Of a stretch of DNA of 58,454 bases, positions 9,093 to 20,633 are shown in pieces. The notes under the pieces were generated by a model that saw nothing but the letters and a program-made list of their open reading frames with translations, had not been told where the DNA came from and searched no databases. The stretch's first letter is position 1; the number at the start of each line of letters is the position of its first letter. Source of the stretch: Streptomyces sp. NRRL F-5123 (lineage in GTDB: Bacteria; Actinomycetota; Actinomycetes; Streptomycetales; Streptomycetaceae); NCBI RefSeq assembly GCF_000721495.1, contig NZ_JOHY01000046.1, positions 1 to 58,454 on the forward strand, written 5' to 3'. A program made the position numbers and the translations under genes.

Positions 9093-9788
9093 ATGGCCCG
9101 CATGCCTCACACCAGCTCCGTTGCCCACCCGCGGTACGACGCCCTGCTCGCCGAGTGGAACCAGCTGCTGCGCCGCTGCCAGGAGAGCGAGCACGGCGGG
9201 GCGGGCGAGCAGGCGCCCGACCCCGGGCCGTACGGGCAGGAGCTGCTGGACCGCTGGGGCGAGCCGCAGCGCCGCTACCACACGGTCGACCACCTCGCGG
9301 AGGTGCTCGCGCGGGCGACCGAGCTGACCGGTTACGCGGAGGACCCGGACACCGTGGCGCTGGCCGCGTGGTTCCACGACGCCGTCTACCGTCCCGACCG
9401 CAGCGAGAACGAGGAGCGCAGCGCCGATCTCGCGCGCCGCGCGCTCACCGAGGCAGGGGTCGGCGCGGAGCGCGTCGCGCAGGTCGTACGGCTCGTGCGG
9501 CTGACCGTGACGCACGACCCCGCGCCCGGCGACGCCGACGGCGAGGTGCTCTGCGACGCCGACCTGGCCGTCCTCGCGGGCCAACCGGCCGCGTACGCCG
9601 CCTACGCCGCCGCCGTCCGCGCCGAGTACGGCTTCGTGCCCGACCCGGACTTCCGCGCCGGGCGGGCCGACGTCCTGCGCCAACTCCTCGGCCTGCCGCA
9701 CCTGTTCCGCACCCCGTACGGCCGCGAGCACTGGGAGCGCACGGCGCGCCGCAACCTCACGACCGAGCTGGAACTCCTGGAGTCCTGA
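9093..9788 (+). CDS. HD-superfamily metal-dependent hydrolase
   Basis: 231 residues. RYHTVDHL (61-68) and the HD pair in AAWFHDAVY (95-96), followed by a downstream ...TVTHDP and CDADLAVL, are the metal ligands of the COG4339-type HD phosphohydrolases. Substrate unknown. Two starts are possible, ATG 9093 and ATG 9102; neither has a strong RBS, and the short CG-rich leader gives no help. It is convergent with the methyltransferase at 9808 (19-bp gap). Confidence 0.8.
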   Translation: MARMPHTSSVAHPRYDALLAEWNQLLRRCQESEHGGAGEQAPDPGPYGQELLDRWGEPQRRYHTVDHLAEVLARATELTGYAEDPDTVALAAWFHDAVYRPDRSENEERSADLARRALTEAGVGAERVAQVVRLVRLTVTHDPAPGDADGEVLCDADLAVLAGQPAAYAAYAAAVRAEYGFVPDPDFRAGRADVLRQLLGLPHLFRTPYGREHWERTARRNLTTELELLES

Positions 9789-11981: not shown

Positions 11982-12323
11982 ATGACGGACGTCGAAGCGG
12001 TGGGCGGCAAGGAAGCGGCGGCGGGGGACGGCGCGACGCTGCCGTTCTGGGTGGACGCCGAGGACGGCGAGGACACCATGGGGCTGCTCGGCGGCAACCC
12101 CGAACTGCGGGCCGTGCCGCTCGGGCCGCTGCGGCGCAACCTCGCCGCCACCGTGGACGCGCTCCAGCAGGTCTTCGCCGACATCACCGCCCAGGGCGGC
12201 ACCCTGCCGCTCGCCGAGGCGCAGCTCTCCTTCCAGGTCACGGCGAGCGGCGGGGTGCAGCTCATCGGAACGGGCCAGGTGGGCGGCAGTCGCGCCCTCA
12301 CCCTGACCTTCCGGCGCCCGTGA
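11982..12323 (+). CDS. Small effector-associated protein (Pepco/Trypco-like) of a conflict system
   Basis: 113 residues. The N-terminal 30 residues are acidic (WVDAEDGEDTMGLL). A helix (LRRNLAATVDALQQVFADI) follows, then a beta-rich end (LAEAQLSFQVTASGGVQLIG, SRALTLTFRR). Such small helix-plus-strand proteins are the constant partners of peptidase effectors in the actinobacterial NTP-dependent conflict systems defined by comparative genomics; the C-terminal pattern looks most like the peptidase-co-occurring (Pepco) domain, less like Trypco2. The next gene starts 13 bp later on the same strand, and that product is a caspase-type peptidase, which supports the call. Start ATG 11982 follows a G-rich RBS (GGCGGGGGCAGG). 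Confidence 0.6.
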   Translation: MTDVEAVGGKEAAAGDGATLPFWVDAEDGEDTMGLLGGNPELRAVPLGPLRRNLAATVDALQQVFADITAQGGTLPLAEAQLSFQVTASGGVQLIGTGQVGGSRALTLTFRRP

Positions 12324-12336
12324 CGCGGCGGCGGGC

Positions 12337-15300
12337 GTGGCGTACCGTGCGCTGCTGATCGGGGCGAGCAGTTACGACGACCCGGCGATCGGCGATCTCC
12401 CCTTCGTGCCGGAGGACCTGCGGCAGCTTCACGCCGCCCTGATCGCACGGGGTTTCGCGTCCGTGGAGGTCCTGGAGGCGCCGCGCGGCATCATCCGCAC
12501 GACGGTGAACGCCCGCGTCGGCGGCTTCCTGCGCGAGGCGCGGCGCGACGACGTGCTGCTCGTCGTGCTCAGCGGCCACGGGCAGCGCTTCGAGGGCACC
12601 GACTACCTCATCCCGGAGGACGCCAGCTTCGCGATCCGGCCATTCGCCGAATGCTGCGTGGCGATCGACTGGCAGCGGGAGCTGGAGGATTCGGCGGCCG
12701 CGCAGGTCCTCTTCCTCGTCGACGCCTGCCGCGAGGGCTTCGCGCGCGACGCCATGAGCCCCGCGGGCGTCCAGGGGTGGGGCAGGCAGCGGATCGCGGC
12801 GGCCCTGCGCCGCAAGGTCGGCTACGTGTACGCGTGCTCGCCCGCGCAGGTCGCGCTCTTCGTCACCCCGAACGAGCGGGCGGCGGACGGCTCTTCGCCC
12901 GGCGAGTCCTTCAGCCTCTTCTCCCGCGCGGTCGCCGGGGTCGTCGCCGAGCTGCCGCACGCCGTGGACCTCGGCGAATTCCACCAGCAGGTGCAGGAGC
13001 GGGTGTCGGCGCTGCACCGCGCGTACGCGAAGCCCGGCAGCCCGCAGGTCGTCCGGCTCGCCACCGACCTGGACGGCGCGGACTTCACCGTGCTGCCGGG
13101 ACCGCCCAAGGACGAAGGTGTGCACCCGTGGGTGCGGTCGGTCACCGGCCACGCGGCCTGGGAGCGTACGGCGGCGGGGCCCGCGCGGGACGCGGTCCAG
13201 GAGGCCGCGCAGACGCTCGCGGCCCGACTCGTCCGCGACTACGCGGAGTCGGGCGCCCGTCTCGCCGACGACCCGTGGCACGACGCCGAACTGGCGACCC
13301 GCACGCAGGAACGCGCGAACTTCCTCGTCCGCGGCCTCGACCCCGCCACCGTCTTCTCCCCCACCGAGGCCGCACTCCTCGTGCTGCTGCCGCTCGTCAC
13401 GCAGGCGTACTGGGCGCGGCAGGCCGCGAGCCGGGCCGGGGTGCTGGACGGCACCGCACCTCGCCCCGAACAGGACCGCTTCCAGGCCTTCACACGCAGC
13501 CACCCCCGTCTGGTGCGCAGACTCGCCGCCCTGGACCAGGCCGCCGACCCGCACGGCGACGCGGCCCGCATCCGCTGGTGGCTGCACCACCGCTGGCTGC
13601 TGCACCAGCCCGAGCTCTACACCGGCGGCGCGCTCACCGCCCTGCTCGCGCTGCCCGACCGCCCGCCGCGCCCCGCGTGGTGCTCCGCCGCGCTCGGCAC
13701 CGCGCGCTTCGCGCACTTCCTCCAGGACCAGCGGCAGGCGCCGTTCGCCCACCCGCAGGGCCCCGCGCTCCCCGACACCGTGGCCGCGTCCACCGGCCAC
13801 GAGCACCTGGTCCGGCAGGACGTCGTCGGCGCCCTCGCCAAGACCGCGCACGCGCTCGCCGTCGACCCCGTCGACCTCTCCGAGATCGTCGCCGAGCACC
13901 TCGGCGTGTCCGACGCCGTCGACACCGGCGGTCTGCTGGCCACCCTGCGCGGCTCCGACTGGCGCGGCGCGGGCGCCGGGCGCTCCCTCAACGCCGAGTG
14001 CGGGCACCCCGCCGTACAGATCGCCTTGCGTGAACACGCCACGCGCACCGACGCGTTGCTGCGCGACATCAGCCGCAGCGCCGGGGGCGGGCCGCTGCAC
14101 GCGCTGCCCGCGTACGCCGACGCCGACCGCGTCCGGCTCACCGGCGGCGCCGCCCACCACCTCACCGAGGGCATCCGCTTCCAGCTCGCCGAGGACCGCG
14201 TCCAGGAACTGCTGATGGGCGAATCCCTCTACGGCGACCGCGACCTCGCCGTCCGCGAGCTGTACCAGAACGCCCTGGACGCGCTGCGCCACCGCGACGC
14301 CCGCACCCAGTACCTGGCCCGCACCGGCACCGGCCGCCGCATGCCCGCGTGGACCGGCACGGTCACCTTCCGCCAGGGGATCGCCCCCGACGGCCGCGGC
14401 TACCTCGAATGCCACGACAACGGCGTCGGCATGGGCGTCACCGAACTCGCCCGCGCCTTCGCCCAGGGCGGCGCCCGCTTCGTCGACCTCCCCGAATACG
14501 CGGAGGAGCAGGCGCAGTGGTCCCAACTCGACCCGCCCGTCCAGCTCTTCCCCAACAGCCGCTTCGGCATCGGCGTCCTGAGCTACTTCATGCTCGCCGA
14601 CGAGATCGAGGTCCGCACCTGCCGCCTCGGCCGCGACGGCCGCCCCGGGCGTCAGCTGAGGGTGACGATCGCGGGCCCCGGCAACCTCTTCCGCGTCGAG
14701 GACCTGGGGGAGGGTGACGAACCCGGCACGGTGGTACGGCTGCTGCTCTCGCGCGGGCGCGCGCCGGTGTCGGTGGTGGACGTGCTGGAGCGGGTGCTGT
14801 GGGTGGCGCAGTACCGGACGGTGGCCGAGCAGGGGGCTCGGCGGGCGGTGTGGGAGCCGGGCGTGCTCAGGCCTCCGGCGGACGTGGCGCGGGAGCCCCG
14901 GCCGGTCGCGTCCGGACATCCGGACCTGTGGTGGACGAGGGGGAAGGGCCTGTTCCTGGCCGACGGCCTCGCGGTGACGATCCCCGACCGGTCGCCCCGG
15001 CCCCGCCTGGGCCAGACGCTCGTGTCGAGCGCCCCTCCCCCGGGTCCCTTGCCGTACGGCGTGCTCGTCAACTTCCACGGACCGCATCAGCTGAAGCTGA
15101 CCGTCGACAGGGCCCATGCCGTCGATGTCCCGCTGTCCCACGTCATCCGCCTCGCGCGGGACGCCGTCGGACGGGACGAGGGCGCCGCCGCGGCCATGGC
15201 GGAATGGGTGTGGCTGGCGGAGATGAGCGCCTTCGCCCCGTCCCTCGCGGACGCCGTCGCCGCGGCAGCCGAGCGTGCCGGCCGGCTCTGGGAACTGGGG

Positions 15301-17040
15301 GGTACGACGATGCCCTTCGGCGCCACGGGCTTTCTGCCCGTCGACCGGCTGCTGCTTCCGCTGATCCGGACGGACGCCGCCGCCTCCCCGAGACGCCTGC
15401 GCGTCGCCGCCCTGCTGCGCGGCATGCCGCCCTTCCTGCTGCGCTGGCGCCTGCCGACCCTCCACCGGGCCCTGGGGGCGGACGGTTTCGAGGGCCCGGG
15501 GCCGCACGCCTCGGGGTTCGCGCGGCCGAGTGACTTCCTGCTGCTGCACCGCGAGGGGAAACCGCAGCTCTGGCTGGACCAATTGGACACGTCGGGGGTG
15601 AACCTCACGGAGACCGCCACACAGAGTCTCGTCCACAAGGTGGCCGGTCTCTGGGCGCGGACCCTGCGTTTCCTCTGCGACTGGCGGCCGTCGTCAGCCG
15701 AGGTCGGCACCGGCGAGGTGCTGAGCGTGGTCGCGAACAGCGGACTGAGCCCGGAGGCCGTCGCCGACCGCTTCCGGGAGCTGGGCTACCGCGTCGCGCC
15801 CCTGGCGGGTCTCGCCGCGGCGGGGCCCGCTGACCTGCCGTTGCTCAGGCCGTTGGGAGGAAGGCAGGAGTGGCTGCCGTCCGAGGGCGAACTCCCTTCG
15901 GCGCAGGTGTCGTTCAGCGCCGTACTGGCCGGGGTGCCGGTCGCCCGGGCGGCCGCCCGGCTGCGCGAACTCGGCTACACCGTGCCGACGCCGCCCGCAG
16001 CCGCGGTGCCCGCGTTCGCCGAACCGAGGGCCTTGTTCAGGACGTTGTGGTCGTGCCTGCGGGAGCTTCCGGCCTTCACCGACGCCGTCCACGTGAGCGC
16101 CGCCCAGCTGACGCTGACGGCCGCGGCGTGCGGGCGCTCCGTCGCCGACACCGCCGCCGCCCTGCGCGGCCTCGGCTTCGTCACGCCTGCGCCGGAGCGG
16201 CTCCCCGAGCTGGCCGAGGACGACCGGCTGCTGCTGGAATACGGCCAGTTCTCGCCCTGGGCCGACCGCCCTGTGCACCCTCTGCACCTCCTTGCCGTGG
16301 CCGCCCGGGACGGGCGCCCCACGGACGTCGTCATCAGCCGGCTGCGCGACCTCGGCTTCGACGTCCCCGGTATCCCGGCCGACGTGCACGACCGGCTCCG
16401 CGCGGCAACGGACGCCGTCGTCGCCGCGGGCCACTACGAACGCGCGGCGATGGAGCTGACCGCCGCGCTGCGGGGCAGGCAGCAGCTGCTGTTCTCGACC
16501 CGGACGTCCCCGGAGGCCGACACGGTGATGGAGCGGTTCCGCGAAGCCCCCTGGCCCCCGCCTGCGCCAGGGGAAGGTCCGCACGGCCGGGCGCGTGCGC
16601 GGGTCGCCTCGGCTGCCCAGCGCTACGCGCTCGCGGTGTGGCTGGGCATCCGCCCGCCGGGGTCCCGGGCCGACTTCGAGGTGCTGGGCTTCGAACTCCC
16701 GCCGGAGGACGCCGAATTCGACCGCGATGTACGGACCGAACTCCGTCTCGAGGCCTTCCTCCGACGCCCTGACCACCCGCTCCTCCCCGGGCCGCCCGGG
16801 GACACGCTCTCCCTGCCGGGGTTGTGTGCCGTCGCGCTCCGCAACGGCCGGACGCTGCGCGAAGTGGCTCTGGCGGCCTCCGGGCTCGGGATACGCCACG
16901 AGGCGGAGACGTGGTTCGGGCCCGTCGTGGCCGCCGCACCGGCCGAGGCGCCGTCGGGCGCGGCTGCGGACGCCGGGGCCGGGAAACGCGCCGAAGGGCC
17001 CGCCGCCCCGGCGGAGGAGGCAGCCGCCCCGGAGCCGTGA
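12337..17040 (+). CDS. Caspase / HSP90-like ATPase / winged-helix-repeat conflict protein
   Basis: 1567 residues from GTG 12337. Residues 1-250 are a caspase (peptidase C14) domain: strand YRALLIGASSYDD, catalytic His81 in VLSGHGQ, Cys131 in FLVDACREG. Residues 250-600 are a helical region I do not recognise. From about 630 to 1000 comes a GHKL/HSP90-type ATPase: N-box RELYQNALDAL (about 640-650), G1 box CHDNGVGMG (about 690), and SRFGIGVLSYF (about 742). From about 1125 to 1520 there are some six repeats built on LxxVA..G(R/V)...RLRELG(F/Y).VP, matching the winged-helix modules reported with such HSP90s. The tail is Ala/Pro/Glu-rich. Inferred role: the ATPase senses or transmits a signal that activates the protease, causing cell suicide on infection. 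No substrate is visible. It forms an operon with the small gene before it. Confidence 0.85.
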   Translation: MAYRALLIGASSYDDPAIGDLPFVPEDLRQLHAALIARGFASVEVLEAPRGIIRTTVNARVGGFLREARRDDVLLVVLSGHGQRFEGTDYLIPEDASFAIRPFAECCVAIDWQRELEDSAAAQVLFLVDACREGFARDAMSPAGVQGWGRQRIAAALRRKVGYVYACSPAQVALFVTPNERAADGSSPGESFSLFSRAVAGVVAELPHAVDLGEFHQQVQERVSALHRAYAKPGSPQVVRLATDLDGADFTVLPGPPKDEGVHPWVRSVTGHAAWERTAAGPARDAVQEAAQTLAARLVRDYAESGARLADDPWHDAELATRTQERANFLVRGLDPATVFSPTEAALLVLLPLVTQAYWARQAASRAGVLDGTAPRPEQDRFQAFTRSHPRLVRRLAALDQAADPHGDAARIRWWLHHRWLLHQPELYTGGALTALLALPDRPPRPAWCSAALGTARFAHFLQDQRQAPFAHPQGPALPDTVAASTGHEHLVRQDVVGALAKTAHALAVDPVDLSEIVAEHLGVSDAVDTGGLLATLRGSDWRGAGAGRSLNAECGHPAVQIALREHATRTDALLRDISRSAGGGPLHALPAYADADRVRLTGGAAHHLTEGIRFQLAEDRVQELLMGESLYGDRDLAVRELYQNALDALRHRDARTQYLARTGTGRRMPAWTGTVTFRQGIAPDGRGYLECHDNGVGMGVTELARAFAQGGARFVDLPEYAEEQAQWSQLDPPVQLFPNSRFGIGVLSYFMLADEIEVRTCRLGRDGRPGRQLRVTIAGPGNLFRVEDLGEGDEPGTVVRLLLSRGRAPVSVVDVLERVLWVAQYRTVAEQGARRAVWEPGVLRPPADVAREPRPVASGHPDLWWTRGKGLFLADGLAVTIPDRSPRPRLGQTLVSSAPPPGPLPYGVLVNFHGPHQLKLTVDRAHAVDVPLSHVIRLARDAVGRDEGAAAAMAEWVWLAEMSAFAPSLADAVAAAAERAGRLWELGGTTMPFGATGFLPVDRLLLPLIRTDAAASPRRLRVAALLRGMPPFLLRWRLPTLHRALGADGFEGPGPHASGFARPSDFLLLHREGKPQLWLDQLDTSGVNLTETATQSLVHKVAGLWARTLRFLCDWRPSSAEVGTGEVLSVVANSGLSPEAVADRFRELGYRVAPLAGLAAAGPADLPLLRPLGGRQEWLPSEGELPSAQVSFSAVLAGVPVARAAARLRELGYTVPTPPAAAVPAFAEPRALFRTLWSCLRELPAFTDAVHVSAAQLTLTAAACGRSVADTAAALRGLGFVTPAPERLPELAEDDRLLLEYGQFSPWADRPVHPLHLLAVAARDGRPTDVVISRLRDLGFDVPGIPADVHDRLRAATDAVVAAGHYERAAMELTAALRGRQQLLFSTRTSPEADTVMERFREAPWPPPAPGEGPHGRARARVASAAQRYALAVWLGIRPPGSRADFEVLGFELPPEDAEFDRDVRTELRLEAFLRRPDHPLLPGPPGDTLSLPGLCAVALRNGRTLREVALAASGLGIRHEAETWFGPVVAAAPAEAPSGAAADAGAGKRAEGPAAPAEEAAAPEP

Positions 17041-17107: not shown

Positions 17108-17389
17108 TCAGGCGCCGCCCCCGCGCCGCGGGTCGTACTTGCGGCGGCGCAGCCCCGCCTGCGTGAGGCGGCGGACCAGTTCCTTGCTGCCGATCTCCAC
17201 CGCGCCCAGCGTCACCGCGTCCGGGTAGCGCTCGGCGGGGATGTCGTAGTGGTCCCGCTCGAACGCGCGCGGCGGGGCGCCGAGCCGGGCCGCGAAGGCG
17301 TGCAGTTCGTCGTACGAGACGTCGCTCACCAGGTGGGACCACATCCGGCCGTGGCCCGGCCACGTCGGAGGGTCGAGGTACACGGTCAC
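17108..17389 (-). CDS. DUF4031 domain protein
   Basis: 93 residues from GTG 17389. The DUF4031 signature is present: VYLDPPTWPGHGRMWSHLVSD at the start (given here in two pieces: VYLDPPTWPG, HGRMWSHLVSD), then ELHAFAARLG and FERDHYDIP with a basic C-terminus (RRRKYDPRR). Function unknown. Its GTG overlaps the TGA of the upstream gene as GTGA (17386-17389), so the two are translationally coupled. Confidence 0.8.
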   Translation of the reverse strand: MTVYLDPPTWPGHGRMWSHLVSDVSYDELHAFAARLGAPPRAFERDHYDIPAERYPDAVTLGAVEIGSKELVRRLTQAGLRRRKYDPRRGGGA

Positions 17390-17754
17390 GGCTGCGGCCC
17401 CGCCGCACGCGGCCCCAGCTCGCCGACCGGCGCGATCGCCTCGCGGCGCACCTCGCACACCCAGACCGGGTCGGGGCCGAGCTCCGGCTCGACCGCGAGC
17501 GCGTGCGGGTCGTCGCAGTACGGGCACAGCGGCCAGCGGCCGTACGACTCCAGCAGCGCGTCCTGCACGTCCTGGGCGACCAGGCCCGGGACGAAGTCGG
17601 CGCCGTCCGGCCACTTGCCCACCCACCAGCGGCGCTCGGCGACCGCCTCCTCCACGAGCGAGACGATCGCGGGACCGGTCACCTCCCGCGCCCCCAGATC
17701 CGCGAGGACGCGGGCGCGAGCCTCGTGCAACGCCGCTTCCGCCGGGTCTTCCAT
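17386..17754 (-). CDS. Hypothetical protein coupled to DUF4031
   Basis: 122 residues from ATG 17754; another ATG three codons upstream (17763) is equally possible. It has an N-terminal helix (PAEAALHEARARVLADL), a tryptophan motif RRWWVGKWPDGADFVPGL, and near the end CPYCDDPHALAVEPE with a later WVCEV. The three cysteines could form a small zinc site. I do not recognise the family beyond actinobacterial conservation. Its four-base overlap with DUF4031 suggests joint function. Confidence 0.65.
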   Translation of the reverse strand: MEDPAEAALHEARARVLADLGAREVTGPAIVSLVEEAVAERRWWVGKWPDGADFVPGLVAQDVQDALLESYGRWPLCPYCDDPHALAVEPELGPDPVWVCEVRREAIAPVGELGPRAAGPQP

Positions 17755-17859
17755 GAGCCCCATTATCCCTTGCCGGTGAGGACCCCGCGGCCCTGGCCGG
17801 CCCGGCGGCGCGGCCGCCCCCCGGCGAAAACGGATGGCCCCCGGCAGCGGGAGCTTCCT

Positions 17860-18435
17860 ATGCTCGCGGACATGGACACCCCCCATCTCCTCAACGTCGT
17901 CGACGTCGAGGCGACGTGCTGGGAGGGGCAGCCGCCCGCCGGGCAGGTCAGCGAGATCATCGAGATCGGCCTCACCGTGGTGGACCTGCGCACCCGCACC
18001 CGGCGGGCGAAGCACCGGCTGCTGGTGCGGCCGGACCGCTCGCGCGTGAGCGCCTTCTGCACGGAGCTGACGGGGCTGACGCAGGACGAGGTGGACGGCG
18101 GCACCGGCTTCGCCGAGGCCTGCCGCGTGCTCGCGGCCGAGCACCGCGCGGCCGTGCTGCCCTGGGCGAGCTGGGGGGATTACGACCGCAACCAGTTCAC
18201 GCGGCAGTGCCGCCGCACCGGCACGCCGTATCCCTTCGGGAGCGCGCACACCAACGCGAAGACCGCCTTCACCGCTGCGTACGGGCTGCGGCGCAGGCCG
18301 GGGATGGCGCAGGCGCTGGAGGTCGCGGGGCTGCCGCTGGAGGGGCGGCACCACCGGGGGGACGACGACGCCTGGAACATCGCCGCACTCGTGCTGGACC
18401 TGGCCGCCCGCGGGGACTGGCCCGCCCCCGGGTGA
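17860..18435 (+). CDS. DEDDh 3'-5' exonuclease (RNase T/KapD-like)
   Basis: 191 residues from ATG 17860, which has GGGAG about 7 bases upstream; ATG 17872 is an alternative. ExoI/II/III motifs are complete: VVDVEATCW (Asp and Glu), the WASWGDYDRNQF segment, and HHRGDDDAWNIAAL, giving the DEDDh acidic residues and catalytic His. The short single-domain form resembles KapD/ERI-1-type exonucleases acting on RNA or DNA ends. The true substrate is unknown. It is divergent from the DUF4031 pair. Confidence 0.85.
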   Translation: MLADMDTPHLLNVVDVEATCWEGQPPAGQVSEIIEIGLTVVDLRTRTRRAKHRLLVRPDRSRVSAFCTELTGLTQDEVDGGTGFAEACRVLAAEHRAAVLPWASWGDYDRNQFTRQCRRTGTPYPFGSAHTNAKTAFTAAYGLRRRPGMAQALEVAGLPLEGRHHRGDDDAWNIAALVLDLAARGDWPAPG

Positions 18436-18455
18436 GCCGCGGCGCCGGCCACGGC

Positions 18456-18487
18456 TTGACGGCCCGATGGCGTGAAAATACCTTTCA
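18456..18487 (+). promoter_or_regulatory. Promoter and probable RpiR/MurR operator
   Basis: -35 TTGACG at 18456-18461, a 17-base spacer, and -10 TACCTT at 18479-18484. The inverted repeat TGAAAATACCTTTCA (arms TGAAA and TTTCA, 18473-18487) covers the -10 box, a position that fits autorepression by the regulator encoded directly downstream. Confidence 0.6.
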
Positions 18488-18491
18488 TAGA

Positions 18492-19460
18492 GTGACCCAC
18501 AGCGTGAAGGAAAATTTCCCGCCGGGTGTCCGCCCGCTGCGCGGCAGCCCGGACGCGCCCGTCATACCCGTCACGCCCCCCGACCCGGGGGCGCTCGCCG
18601 CCAAGGTCCGTACGCTCGCCCCGTCCATGACGCGCTCCATGCAGCGCGTCGCGGAGGCCGTCGCGGGCGATCCGGCCGGCTGCGCCCAGCAGACCGTCAC
18701 CGCCCTCGCGATCCGCACGGGCACCAGCGAGGCCACCGTCGTCCGCACCGCCCGGCTGCTCGGCTACCCGGGCTACCGGGATCTGCGGCTCGCCCTGGCC
18801 GCGCTCGCCGCCCAGCAGGCGGCCGGGGTGCCGCCGGCCGTGACGGCGGACATCGCGGTGGACGACCCGCTGCCCGACGTCGTCGCCAAACTCGCCCTGG
18901 AGGAGCAGCAGACCCTCGCCGACACCGCCGCCCAGCTGGACATGGCCCAACTGGAGGCCGCCGTCGCCGCGTTGGCGGGAGCCCGGCGGATCGACGTGTA
19001 CGGCACGGCCGCCTCCGGGCTGGTCGGGCAGGACCTGGCGCAGAAGCTGCTGCGCATCGGGCTGATCGCGCAGGCGCACACCGACCCCCATCTGGCGGTC
19101 ACCAACGCCGTCCAACTCCGGCCGGGCGACGTCGCCGTGGCCATCACCCACTCCGGCAGCACGCACGACGTGATCGATCCGCTGCGGGCCGCCTTCGACC
19201 GCGGCGCGACGACGATCGCGGTGTCGGGCCGTCCGGACGGTCCGGTCACGCAGTGGGCGGACGTCGTGCTGACCACGTCCTGCTCCCGCGAGAGCGAGCT
19301 GCGGCCCGCCGCGATGTCCAGCCGGACGAGCCAACTCCTCGTCGTCGACTGCCTGTTCGTGGGCGTCGCACAGCGGACGTACGAGACCGCGGCCCCCGCG
19401 CTCGCCGCCTCCTACGAGGCCCTCGCCCACCGCCACCGACCCCGACCGAGCCGCGGCTGA
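18492..19460 (+). CDS. RpiR/MurR-family sugar-phosphate-sensing regulator
   Basis: 322 residues from GTG 18492. The N-terminal HTH domain (about 30-110) shows MQRVAEAVAGDP, TVTALAIRTGTSEATVVRTARLLGYPGYRDLRLAL. The C-terminal SIS domain (about 150-300) has RIDVYGTAASGLVGQDL and GDVAVAITHSGSTHDVID, the sugar-phosphate binding loop. The murQ gene lies downstream on the same strand, so the ligand is probably MurNAc-6-phosphate or a related sugar phosphate. A GTG four codons later (18504) is an alternative start. The operator-like repeat just upstream suggests autoregulation. Confidence 0.87.
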   Translation: MTHSVKENFPPGVRPLRGSPDAPVIPVTPPDPGALAAKVRTLAPSMTRSMQRVAEAVAGDPAGCAQQTVTALAIRTGTSEATVVRTARLLGYPGYRDLRLALAALAAQQAAGVPPAVTADIAVDDPLPDVVAKLALEEQQTLADTAAQLDMAQLEAAVAALAGARRIDVYGTAASGLVGQDLAQKLLRIGLIAQAHTDPHLAVTNAVQLRPGDVAVAITHSGSTHDVIDPLRAAFDRGATTIAVSGRPDGPVTQWADVVLTTSCSRESELRPAAMSSRTSQLLVVDCLFVGVAQRTYETAAPALAASYEALAHRHRPRPSRG

Positions 19461-19685
19461 CCCCGACCGGCCCGAACCCCCGCACGCGGCCGGTCAGGCC
19501 GCGAACCGCCGGGCCCCGCACGGGACATGCGGGCGCCCGGACAGTCCCCGCACGCCCCCACCAGCCTCCGCCGGGCCCGCGCCGGGACGGGCGGACCGCC
19601 CGACGCCATAACCGGTCATTGCCTGACATACTGCACCAAGCCCCCTTCTGCGGCCCCACCCGCCGAGCCGACCCCTGCGAGAAGG

Positions 19686-20633
19686 ATGAACGAGCCGCAT
19701 ATGCCCCAGTACACCGAGCTGCGTCGCGAACTGGACACGCTGACCACCGAGGCCTTCCGGCCGGAGCTCGCCGAGATCGACCGCATGACGACGCTGGAGA
19801 TCGCCCGCACGATGAACGGTGAGGACGCCACCGTTCCGGCCGCCGTCGCCGCCCAGCTGCCCGCCGTCGCCGCCGCGATCGACGGCATCGCCGCCCGGAT
19901 GTCGCGCGGCGGCCGGCTCGTCTACGCGGGCGCCGGGACCGCCGGGCGGCTCGGCGTGCTGGACGCCAGCGAGTGCCCGCCGACCTTCAACACCACGCCC
20001 GGCGGGGAGGTGGTGGGGCTCATCGCGGGCGGGCCGTCCGCGATGGTCACCTCGGTCGAGGGCGCCGAGGACAGCAAGGAGCTGGCCGCGCGCGACCTGG
20101 ACGCGCTCGGGCTGACCGCCGCCGACTCCGTCGTGGGGGTCTCGGCCTCCGGGCGCACCCCGTACGCGCTGGGCGCGGTCGAGCACGCCCGGGCGCTCGG
20201 GGCGCTCACGGTGGGCCTCGCGTGCAACGCGGGGTCGCCGCTCGCGGCCGCCGCCGAGCACGGCATCGAGGTCGTCGTCGGACCCGAACTCCTCACCGGC
20301 TCCACCCGGTTGAAGTCCGGCACCGCGCAGAAGCTGGTCCTCAACATGCTCTCGACGATCACCATGATCCGGCTGGGCAAGACGTACGGGAATCTGATGG
20401 TGGACGTCCGCGCGTCCAACGAGAAGCTGCGCGCGCGCTCGCGCCGTATCGTCTCGCTCGCCACCGGCGCGGACGACGCGGCGATCGAGGACGCCCTCAC
20501 CGCGACCGACGGCGAGGTCAAGCCCGCCATCCTGACCCTGCTCGCCCGCGTGGACGCCCCGACCGCGGACCGGCTGCTGCGGGAGTCCGACGGCCATCTG
20601 CGCGAGGCCCTGGAGTCGGCCCGGCCCGTGTAA
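19686..20633 (+). CDS. murQ: N-acetylmuramic acid 6-phosphate etherase
   Basis: 315 residues. MurQ cleaves the lactyl ether of MurNAc-6-P to GlcNAc-6-P, feeding wall sugars to NagA. Seen: the SIS domain GGRLVYAGAGTAGRLGVLDA, ECPPTFNTTP and the catalytic glutamate in SVEGAEDSKELAARDL, then SGRTPYALGAVEHA and MLSTITMIRLGKTYGNLMVDV. ATG 19686 directly abuts GAGAAGG, leaving almost no spacing; ATG 19701 five codons later would have a better, longer spacing, so the start is uncertain. The 225-bp gap after the RpiR gene may hold its own promoter. Downstream is a shared hairpin terminator. Confidence 0.93.
   Translation: MNEPHMPQYTELRRELDTLTTEAFRPELAEIDRMTTLEIARTMNGEDATVPAAVAAQLPAVAAAIDGIAARMSRGGRLVYAGAGTAGRLGVLDASECPPTFNTTPGGEVVGLIAGGPSAMVTSVEGAEDSKELAARDLDALGLTAADSVVGVSASGRTPYALGAVEHARALGALTVGLACNAGSPLAAAAEHGIEVVVGPELLTGSTRLKSGTAQKLVLNMLSTITMIRLGKTYGNLMVDVRASNEKLRARSRRIVSLATGADDAAIEDALTATDGEVKPAILTLLARVDAPTADRLLRESDGHLREALESARPV

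Follow-up and report, generated by a model that had tools for sequence, protein, structure and literature searches.

The locus described here is probably a conflict system of two genes that serves immunity or abortive infection, a reading held with modest confidence, in which a small gene precedes a large receptor protein with four working parts. It lies in a stretch of 58,454 nucleotides of Streptomyces sp. NRRL F-5123 (contig NZ_JOHY01000046.1), referred to below as the window, and its features are collected in Table 1. The list of parts is nothing new: the architecture is already named in Pfam. Within this known architecture, the part worth following is a pattern of divergence by which the C-terminal half of the receptor seems to have been swapped among related bacteria, with little change in the protease half.

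The receptor is read from a GTG start over 1567 codons. The first-pass annotation had placed a caspase, a GHKL/HSP90-like ATPase and winged helices in this one chain, and matches in Pfam, NCBIfam and the PDB bear this out. Conservation of residues was followed in 117 aligned proteins, comprising the window protein and 116 homologues of at least 1400 residues from the best 120 of 375; where these best 120 are named, they are mostly named Streptomyces. Clustering of this set at 90% identity favours pairs that differ somewhere. The mean column entropy is lowest in residues 601–800, the stretch holding most of the ATPase N-domain, and highest in most blocks from 851 to about 1500.

Table 1 Features of the two-gene system and its flanks (positions are those of the window)
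Feature	Position	Strand	Basis
Caspase – iHD-CE – HSP90 N/M – winged-helix array protein, 1567 aa	12337..17040	+	
Caspase domain, residues 1–250; His81, Cys131; presumed S1-pocket acids Asp27, Asp129	12337..13086	+	
iHD-CE domain, residues 265–600, HD doublet apparently absent	13129..14136	+	PF24401 and comparison with one intact HD-CE protein
HSP90-type ATPase N-domain, residues 605–815; Glu641, Asn645, Asp694	14149..14781	+	
HSP90 large middle domain, residues 816–947, invariant Arg925	14782..15177	+	
Six winged-helix-like repeats, residues 1125–1518	15709..16890	+	PF24410; six helix pairs in model md5163e099291
Exchanged-cassette-like block in relatives, about residues 840–1500	14854..16836	+	Codon dS scans, identity breaks
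Pepco gene, 113 aa, small partner	11982..12323	+	PF24393, E 1.2e-17
Upstream flank gene, 231 aa, weak HD match	9093..9788	+	Orthologue 5' of Pepco in 10/10 loci
Downstream flank: DUF4031 (-), 125-aa gene (-), 191-aa gene (+), RpiR (+), MurQ (+)	17108..20633		

The N-terminal domain is by sequence and fold a member of peptidase family C14, with a His/Cys dyad and a caspase fold, and proteolysis is predicted. Pfam matches Peptidase_C14 at residues 4–237 (E 1.4e-11), and the dyad is complete, as had been claimed: Cys131 is kept in 117/117 proteins and His81 in 116, the exception (P0080) being without the domain start in the alignment. The fold match is MALT1. Asp27 (115/117) and Asp129 (117/117) align with MALT1 residues that, by our own numbering, are Asp365 and Asp462. 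The portion consulted of a review (PMC4357240) ties these two residues to specificity for, or binding of, a P1 arginine. On the basis of these MALT1-like acidic S1 residues, cleavage after Arg or Lys is predicted. The likeness consists of the caspase fold and the acidic residues; the identity is 19%, and the window domain is part of a bacterial multidomain protein. The acids placed on the window protein are the two named; a third in MALT1 is Glu500. In PADLOC-DB v2, the sole match of the receptor is a weak one to a generic 'caspase' entry (PDLC02987, E 1.9e-4, 18.7 bits), and Pepco has no match there.

The following module had been described as unknown and helical. It is indeed present, but it is a named family, iHD-CE (Pfam PF24401 at residues 265–600, E 9.3e-80, 268.9 bits against a cut-off of 27); the Pfam HD-CE model also matches, at 311–576 (E 3.1e-23). 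The HD metal-binding doublet appears to be missing, as judged by placing the sequence by hand against a single intact comparator, L089. When both are aligned ungapped from a shared, hand-placed S/T-P-T-E-A anchor, the HD of L089 falls on residues 355–356, where the automatic alignment is gapped. Residue 356 is Gln in 112/117 proteins and residue 355 is variable, and residue 319, opposite another His of L089, is Leu in 114/117. An HD pair does exist at 315–316 (His in 99/117, Asp in 116/117), but its counterpart in L089 is a different HD pair. The comparator itself (G337:C40:98663-99457) has an HD-CE domain that retains the doublet and, further along the chain, a region with HSP90-like ATPase motifs; it may be a counterpart whose effector is the HD domain.

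Profile searches for C14, GHKL and winged-helix domains, proposed with the first-pass annotation, found the first and the last; the GHKL model HATPase_c matches weakly (E 0.2, 12.6 bits against a cut-off of 26.4), and HSP90/HtpG models and HtpG of the PDB support the ATPase instead. The NCBIfam HSP90/HtpG models match residues 626–809 (E 4.3e-11 and 3.8e-9), with scores against the HSP90-family equivalog models far below the cut-offs (35.6 and 42 bits, for cut-offs of 371 and 455). E. coli HtpG matches residues 622–807, with E 2.1e-5 for the single sequence and 8.4e-12 for a 12-sequence profile. The nucleotide boxes are all present, as first read, since Glu641, Asn645, Asp694, Gly696, Gly698, Gly744, Gly746 and Thr798 are each kept in 117/117 proteins, and ATPase activity is predicted. 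The fold match is TRAP1/HSP90 and covers the N-domain and the large middle domain, the aligned range ending at TRAP1 residue 425. Counting back from where that range ends places Arg925, also found in 117/117, at about TRAP1 residue 403, which is presumably near the middle-domain catalytic Arg of HSP90; Arg925 may be the equivalent of this residue. The likeness to the HtpG, TRAP1 and Hsp90 chaperones thus covers the fold of both domains, the ATPase motifs and Arg925, whereas the chaperone C-terminal part is replaced by the winged-helix array.

This array matches Pfam wHTH-HSP90_Na-assoc (PF24410; E 1.9e-13, 50.9 bits against a cut-off of 23). The estimate of some six winged helices agrees with the model, in which our own reading of the secondary structure finds six helix-turn-helix pairs, but not with Pfam, which counts four stretches at E <= 1 and three at E <= 0.001. 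A related receptor (L023:7109-12259) has eight winged-helix stretches and matches PF24410 far more strongly than the window protein (1.2e-105).

With iHD-CE and winged-helix matches above their cut-offs, and an HSP90-type ATPase between them identified by both the HtpG sequence match and the TRAP1 fold match, the protein belongs with the iHD-CE/HSP90/wHTH conflict proteins (PF24401, PF24391, PF24410, PF24393), which unite these named domains in a single chain with Pepco adjacent. The earlier assignment to a conflict or immunity class is supported by the Pfam family names, and the iHD-CE/HSP90/wHTH/Pepco architecture was reportedly described as conflict systems by Nicastro, Burroughs, Iyer and Aravind in NAR in 2023. 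The conflict reading is supported by the catalytic residues of both enzymes, which are intact in 116–117 of the 117 proteins. Against a role in defence counts the position of the locus, a shared chromosomal site amid ordinary genes, unlike that of many phage-defence genes.

The small preceding partner is confirmed as Pepco (PF24393, 64.8 bits against a cut-off of 27), and 13 nt separate its end from the receptor gene, so the two-gene arrangement stands. In a survey of the family, 37 core proteins (window included) have a readable architecture, and 19 of them are fused to a caspase while 18 are not. This count leaves out G120, a weak second match of G191 and fragments in G024 and G001, and it includes L066, a shortened protein of 814 aa. 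The caspase of L025 was assigned from its 84% identity to L023; our own caspase profile, built from window-type proteins, missed the caspase that Pfam detects in L023 and may miss others. Pepco adjoins 7/19 of the caspase-fused proteins (window included; L064 is without upstream sequence) and 0/18 of the caspase-less ones. As only seven of the caspase-fused proteins have it, Pepco is not essential to the class. Viewed from the other side, 13 of the 19 Pepco genes in the 200 genomes have an adjacent caspase reading frame, one of these being a remnant, and six do not. Some of the adjacent caspases bear other C-terminal modules, in one case a DnaG-type primase.

In two relatives Pepco persists at the same locus. 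One has lost the receptor (L028:6419-6724), and in the other the receptor is a 231-aa remnant, 85% identical to window residues 1–186 (L029:9851-10868). Because Pepco accompanies caspases, and persists in these two relatives where the receptor is gone or shortened, it could be a caspase-linked regulator, perhaps a restraining partner, although of all the parts its role is the least certain.

The primase fusion deserves a separate description. At L038:8957-11725 (G031) a caspase is fused to a whole DnaG-type primase, with Pepco as the reading frame just upstream. Over two thirds of the query, the primase part shows about 62% identity to DnaG proteins of chromosomes, and its Toprim motif FDGD reads FNGD. 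This substitution suggests an inactive mimic of the host primase that might serve as bait. In the literature searched, no paper was found that combines most of these features. Two further Pepco-linked proteins of about 1500 aa (L074:8535-13037 and L076:8684-13138) have a caspase match by our own profile, and Pfam assigns no family to the L074 protein at E <= 0.01.

Divergence along the receptor is not even. The window protein and its best-scoring homologue, P0001, are nearly identical up to about residue 845 and diverge after it: they share 89–97 of each hundred residues up to residue 800, then 59/82 and 43/83, and P0001 ends at 966 residues. P0015 and P0016 are 97% identical in residues 1–800, 47% in 840–1500 and 84% in 1500–1530. 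Among pairs with an N-half identity of at least 95%, 12/46 have a C-half identity below 60%; these come from the 90%-clustered set and are not population frequencies.

Synonymous divergence was compared in 13 pairs, the closest of 35 that exceed 55% identity in a set of 47 core proteins. In all 13, dS is higher after the ATPase N-domain than before it, by 2.2–5.5 fold in eight pairs and by 1.1–1.7 fold in five. The block-permutation p is at most 0.0012 in ten pairs and 0.0062, 0.0322 and 0.2763 in the others. Six of the pairs come from L015, L017, L018 and L056, so that the pairs are not independent, and they form six groups. Strong steps are found in three of these: the L015 group (2.2–5.5 fold in five pairs, 1.3 in L018–L056), L016–L019 (3.3 fold) and L048–L053 (5.3 fold), the last being without Pepco. 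The step is 1.5–2.2 fold in the caspase-less L049/L051/L052, where the dS of the N-half is itself above the flanks' median, slight (1.4 fold) in L023–L025 and effectively absent (1.1) in L050–L054, where again the N-half dS exceeds the flanks' median. Near its 3' end the L017 gene is split into two overlapping frames, of which the 1414-aa piece entered the comparison; its values for the tail are meaningless. The course of dS is illustrated by S. lomondensis (L015) and S. olindensis (L018), with values of 0.02–0.23 in columns 1–840, 0.33–1.11 in 841–1500 and 0.17 in the last block, while the flanking genes have 0.09–0.35.

A rival reading is a C-terminal half that is merely relaxed and fast-evolving, with neither exchange nor a role in recognition; in its favour, dN/dS is higher in the linker and the repeats. 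Alignment error can moreover inflate dS at low identity, and the identities of the two halves correlate across pairs (Spearman 0.91), which counts against exchange. We nevertheless regard this explanation as quite unlikely, since dS jumps too within the block and is low again in the tail and the flanks (L015–L018 and L016–L019). L018–L056 is instructive: the C-half identity is 72%, with little step in dS (0.30 vs 0.23; flanks' median 0.30). Fast protein change thus need not raise dS, and alignment error is unlikely to be the sole cause of the steps.

Nearest-neighbour comparisons give mixed indications. For blocks of like size, the nearest neighbour agrees across the boundary (470–800 vs 840–1170) for 44/117 proteins, compared with 57/117 and 74/117 within either side of it. 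For whole halves the agreement is 56/117, no lower than the 55/117 between two parts of the N-half, which counts against exchange. No second copy of the C-terminal half is found in the window's own genome, and donors would therefore be in other genomes.

The chromosomal position is shared. The window-type systems (window, L015–L020, L022, L056 and L087) all sit downstream of orthologues of cutC and the 231-aa gene (10/10 loci with visible flanks; the contig of L084 is too short to judge), with 0 to 3 called genes between the 231-aa gene and Pepco. RpiR and MurQ follow in 8/10. The other Pepco-linked receptors, L055, L063, L069 and L070, have none of these neighbours among the surrounding genes examined. 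Eleven other genomes of the genus were compared at the murQ locus: two retain Pepco but have no intact receptor, as described above, and nine have neither gene there; one of the nine, G022, has its own system about 32 kb from this locus. Overall, iHD-CE was found in 7/35 genomes of the genus (two as fragments), 35/200 of the family and 25/199 relatives of G169.

Two side observations concern related genes. The window's own genome has a second iHD-CE/HSP90/wHTH protein (L021:7053-10991, G000 contig C27), of 1312 aa and without caspase or Pepco, which adjoins a RamC/LanC-like protein and an ABC transporter. Beside a caspase-less iHD-CE/HSP90 protein, and on the strand opposite to it, lies a separate gene of 1025 aa (L044:4314-7391) that matches the caspase profile in part.

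A chromosomal locus with neighbours conserved in Streptomyces and in the window's genus, together with the HSP90 fold, would suit an internal switch for stress or development, in which the HSP90 half responds to proteotoxic stress or to a signal of development, with the caspase carrying out programmed cell death of the mycelium. The sparse occurrence within the genus and the nine empty murQ loci make this unlikely, as does a C-terminal half that seems to be exchanged block-wise and changes fast, which is unexpected for a housekeeping sensor. That proteins at one shared locus combine very similar N-halves with diverged C-halves also recalls allorecognition or kin discrimination: the exchanged half would label strains, and a meeting of unlike hyphae would lead to caspase-driven death, as with fungal het genes. 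The hosts are filamentous, and two S. luteogriseus proteins (P0023 and P0046, one species by their source names) are 93% identical in the caspase and 55% in the C-half; presence across species is, however, patchy in the family survey, and we consider allorecognition unlikely.

Under the preferred reading, as a conflict system, the parts may work as follows. The C-terminal half, comprising the HSP90 middle domain and the six winged helices, would bind a ligand derived from an invader or from damage, a role suggested by its being variable and apparently exchanged. The HSP90-type ATPase would be an ATP-gated switch that sets the threshold, as suggested by its invariant ATPase residues and the fold match over N- and middle domains. 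The apparently inactive HD domain would be a spacer or docking module. The caspase would be the output: on activation it might be freed, or paired with a second copy, and cut after Arg or Lys, with Pepco perhaps restraining it. The first-pass annotation had suggested a chaperone-like sensor that frees the protease. HSP90 as a regulator is plausible, its ATPase residues being intact throughout the alignment, but by the block divergence the sensor-like part is the middle domain with the winged helices, and it is the ATPase N-domain that varies least.

Similar organisations are known elsewhere. In the portion consulted of the account of EACC1-caspase systems (Kaur et al., eLife 2020, PMC7159879), actinobacteria likewise have a small gene upstream of a protein that begins with a caspase and varies in its C-terminal modules. 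The partner in the window is Pepco, the term HSP90 is absent from that text, and the window protein scores 58 bits with the NCBIfam EACC1-type caspase model, below its cut-off of 140. GHKL-Shedu VcSduA, in the part consulted of its description (PMC12137116), combines an effector with a GHKL ATPase that is proposed to control it, and was tested in phage defence; the effector is a nuclease, and no caspase, iHD-CE or winged-helix array is described there. For the class itself, no trigger, target or experimental study was found in the literature searched, most subscription papers being outside its scope. Exchange of the C-half and the shared locus were likewise not found in that literature, with Nicastro et al. 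2023 outside the comparison.

The block-wise divergence points to the half that should be tested for recognition, and natural pairs such as P0015/P0016 differ almost only there. The MALT1-like S1 residues predict cleavage after Arg or Lys, which is readily assayed. If HSP90 serves here as a receptor switch and not as a general chaperone, more kinds of ATPase would be known to gate immune proteases. It is conceivable, at a little short of an even chance, that the system is a bacterial counterpart of NLR and het proteins, with a constant caspase–HSP90 engine at a shared chromosomal site and a recognition half (about residues 840–1500) of swapped, diverse alleles. If so, specificity would shift by recombination between strains and species, while the gene itself stays put.
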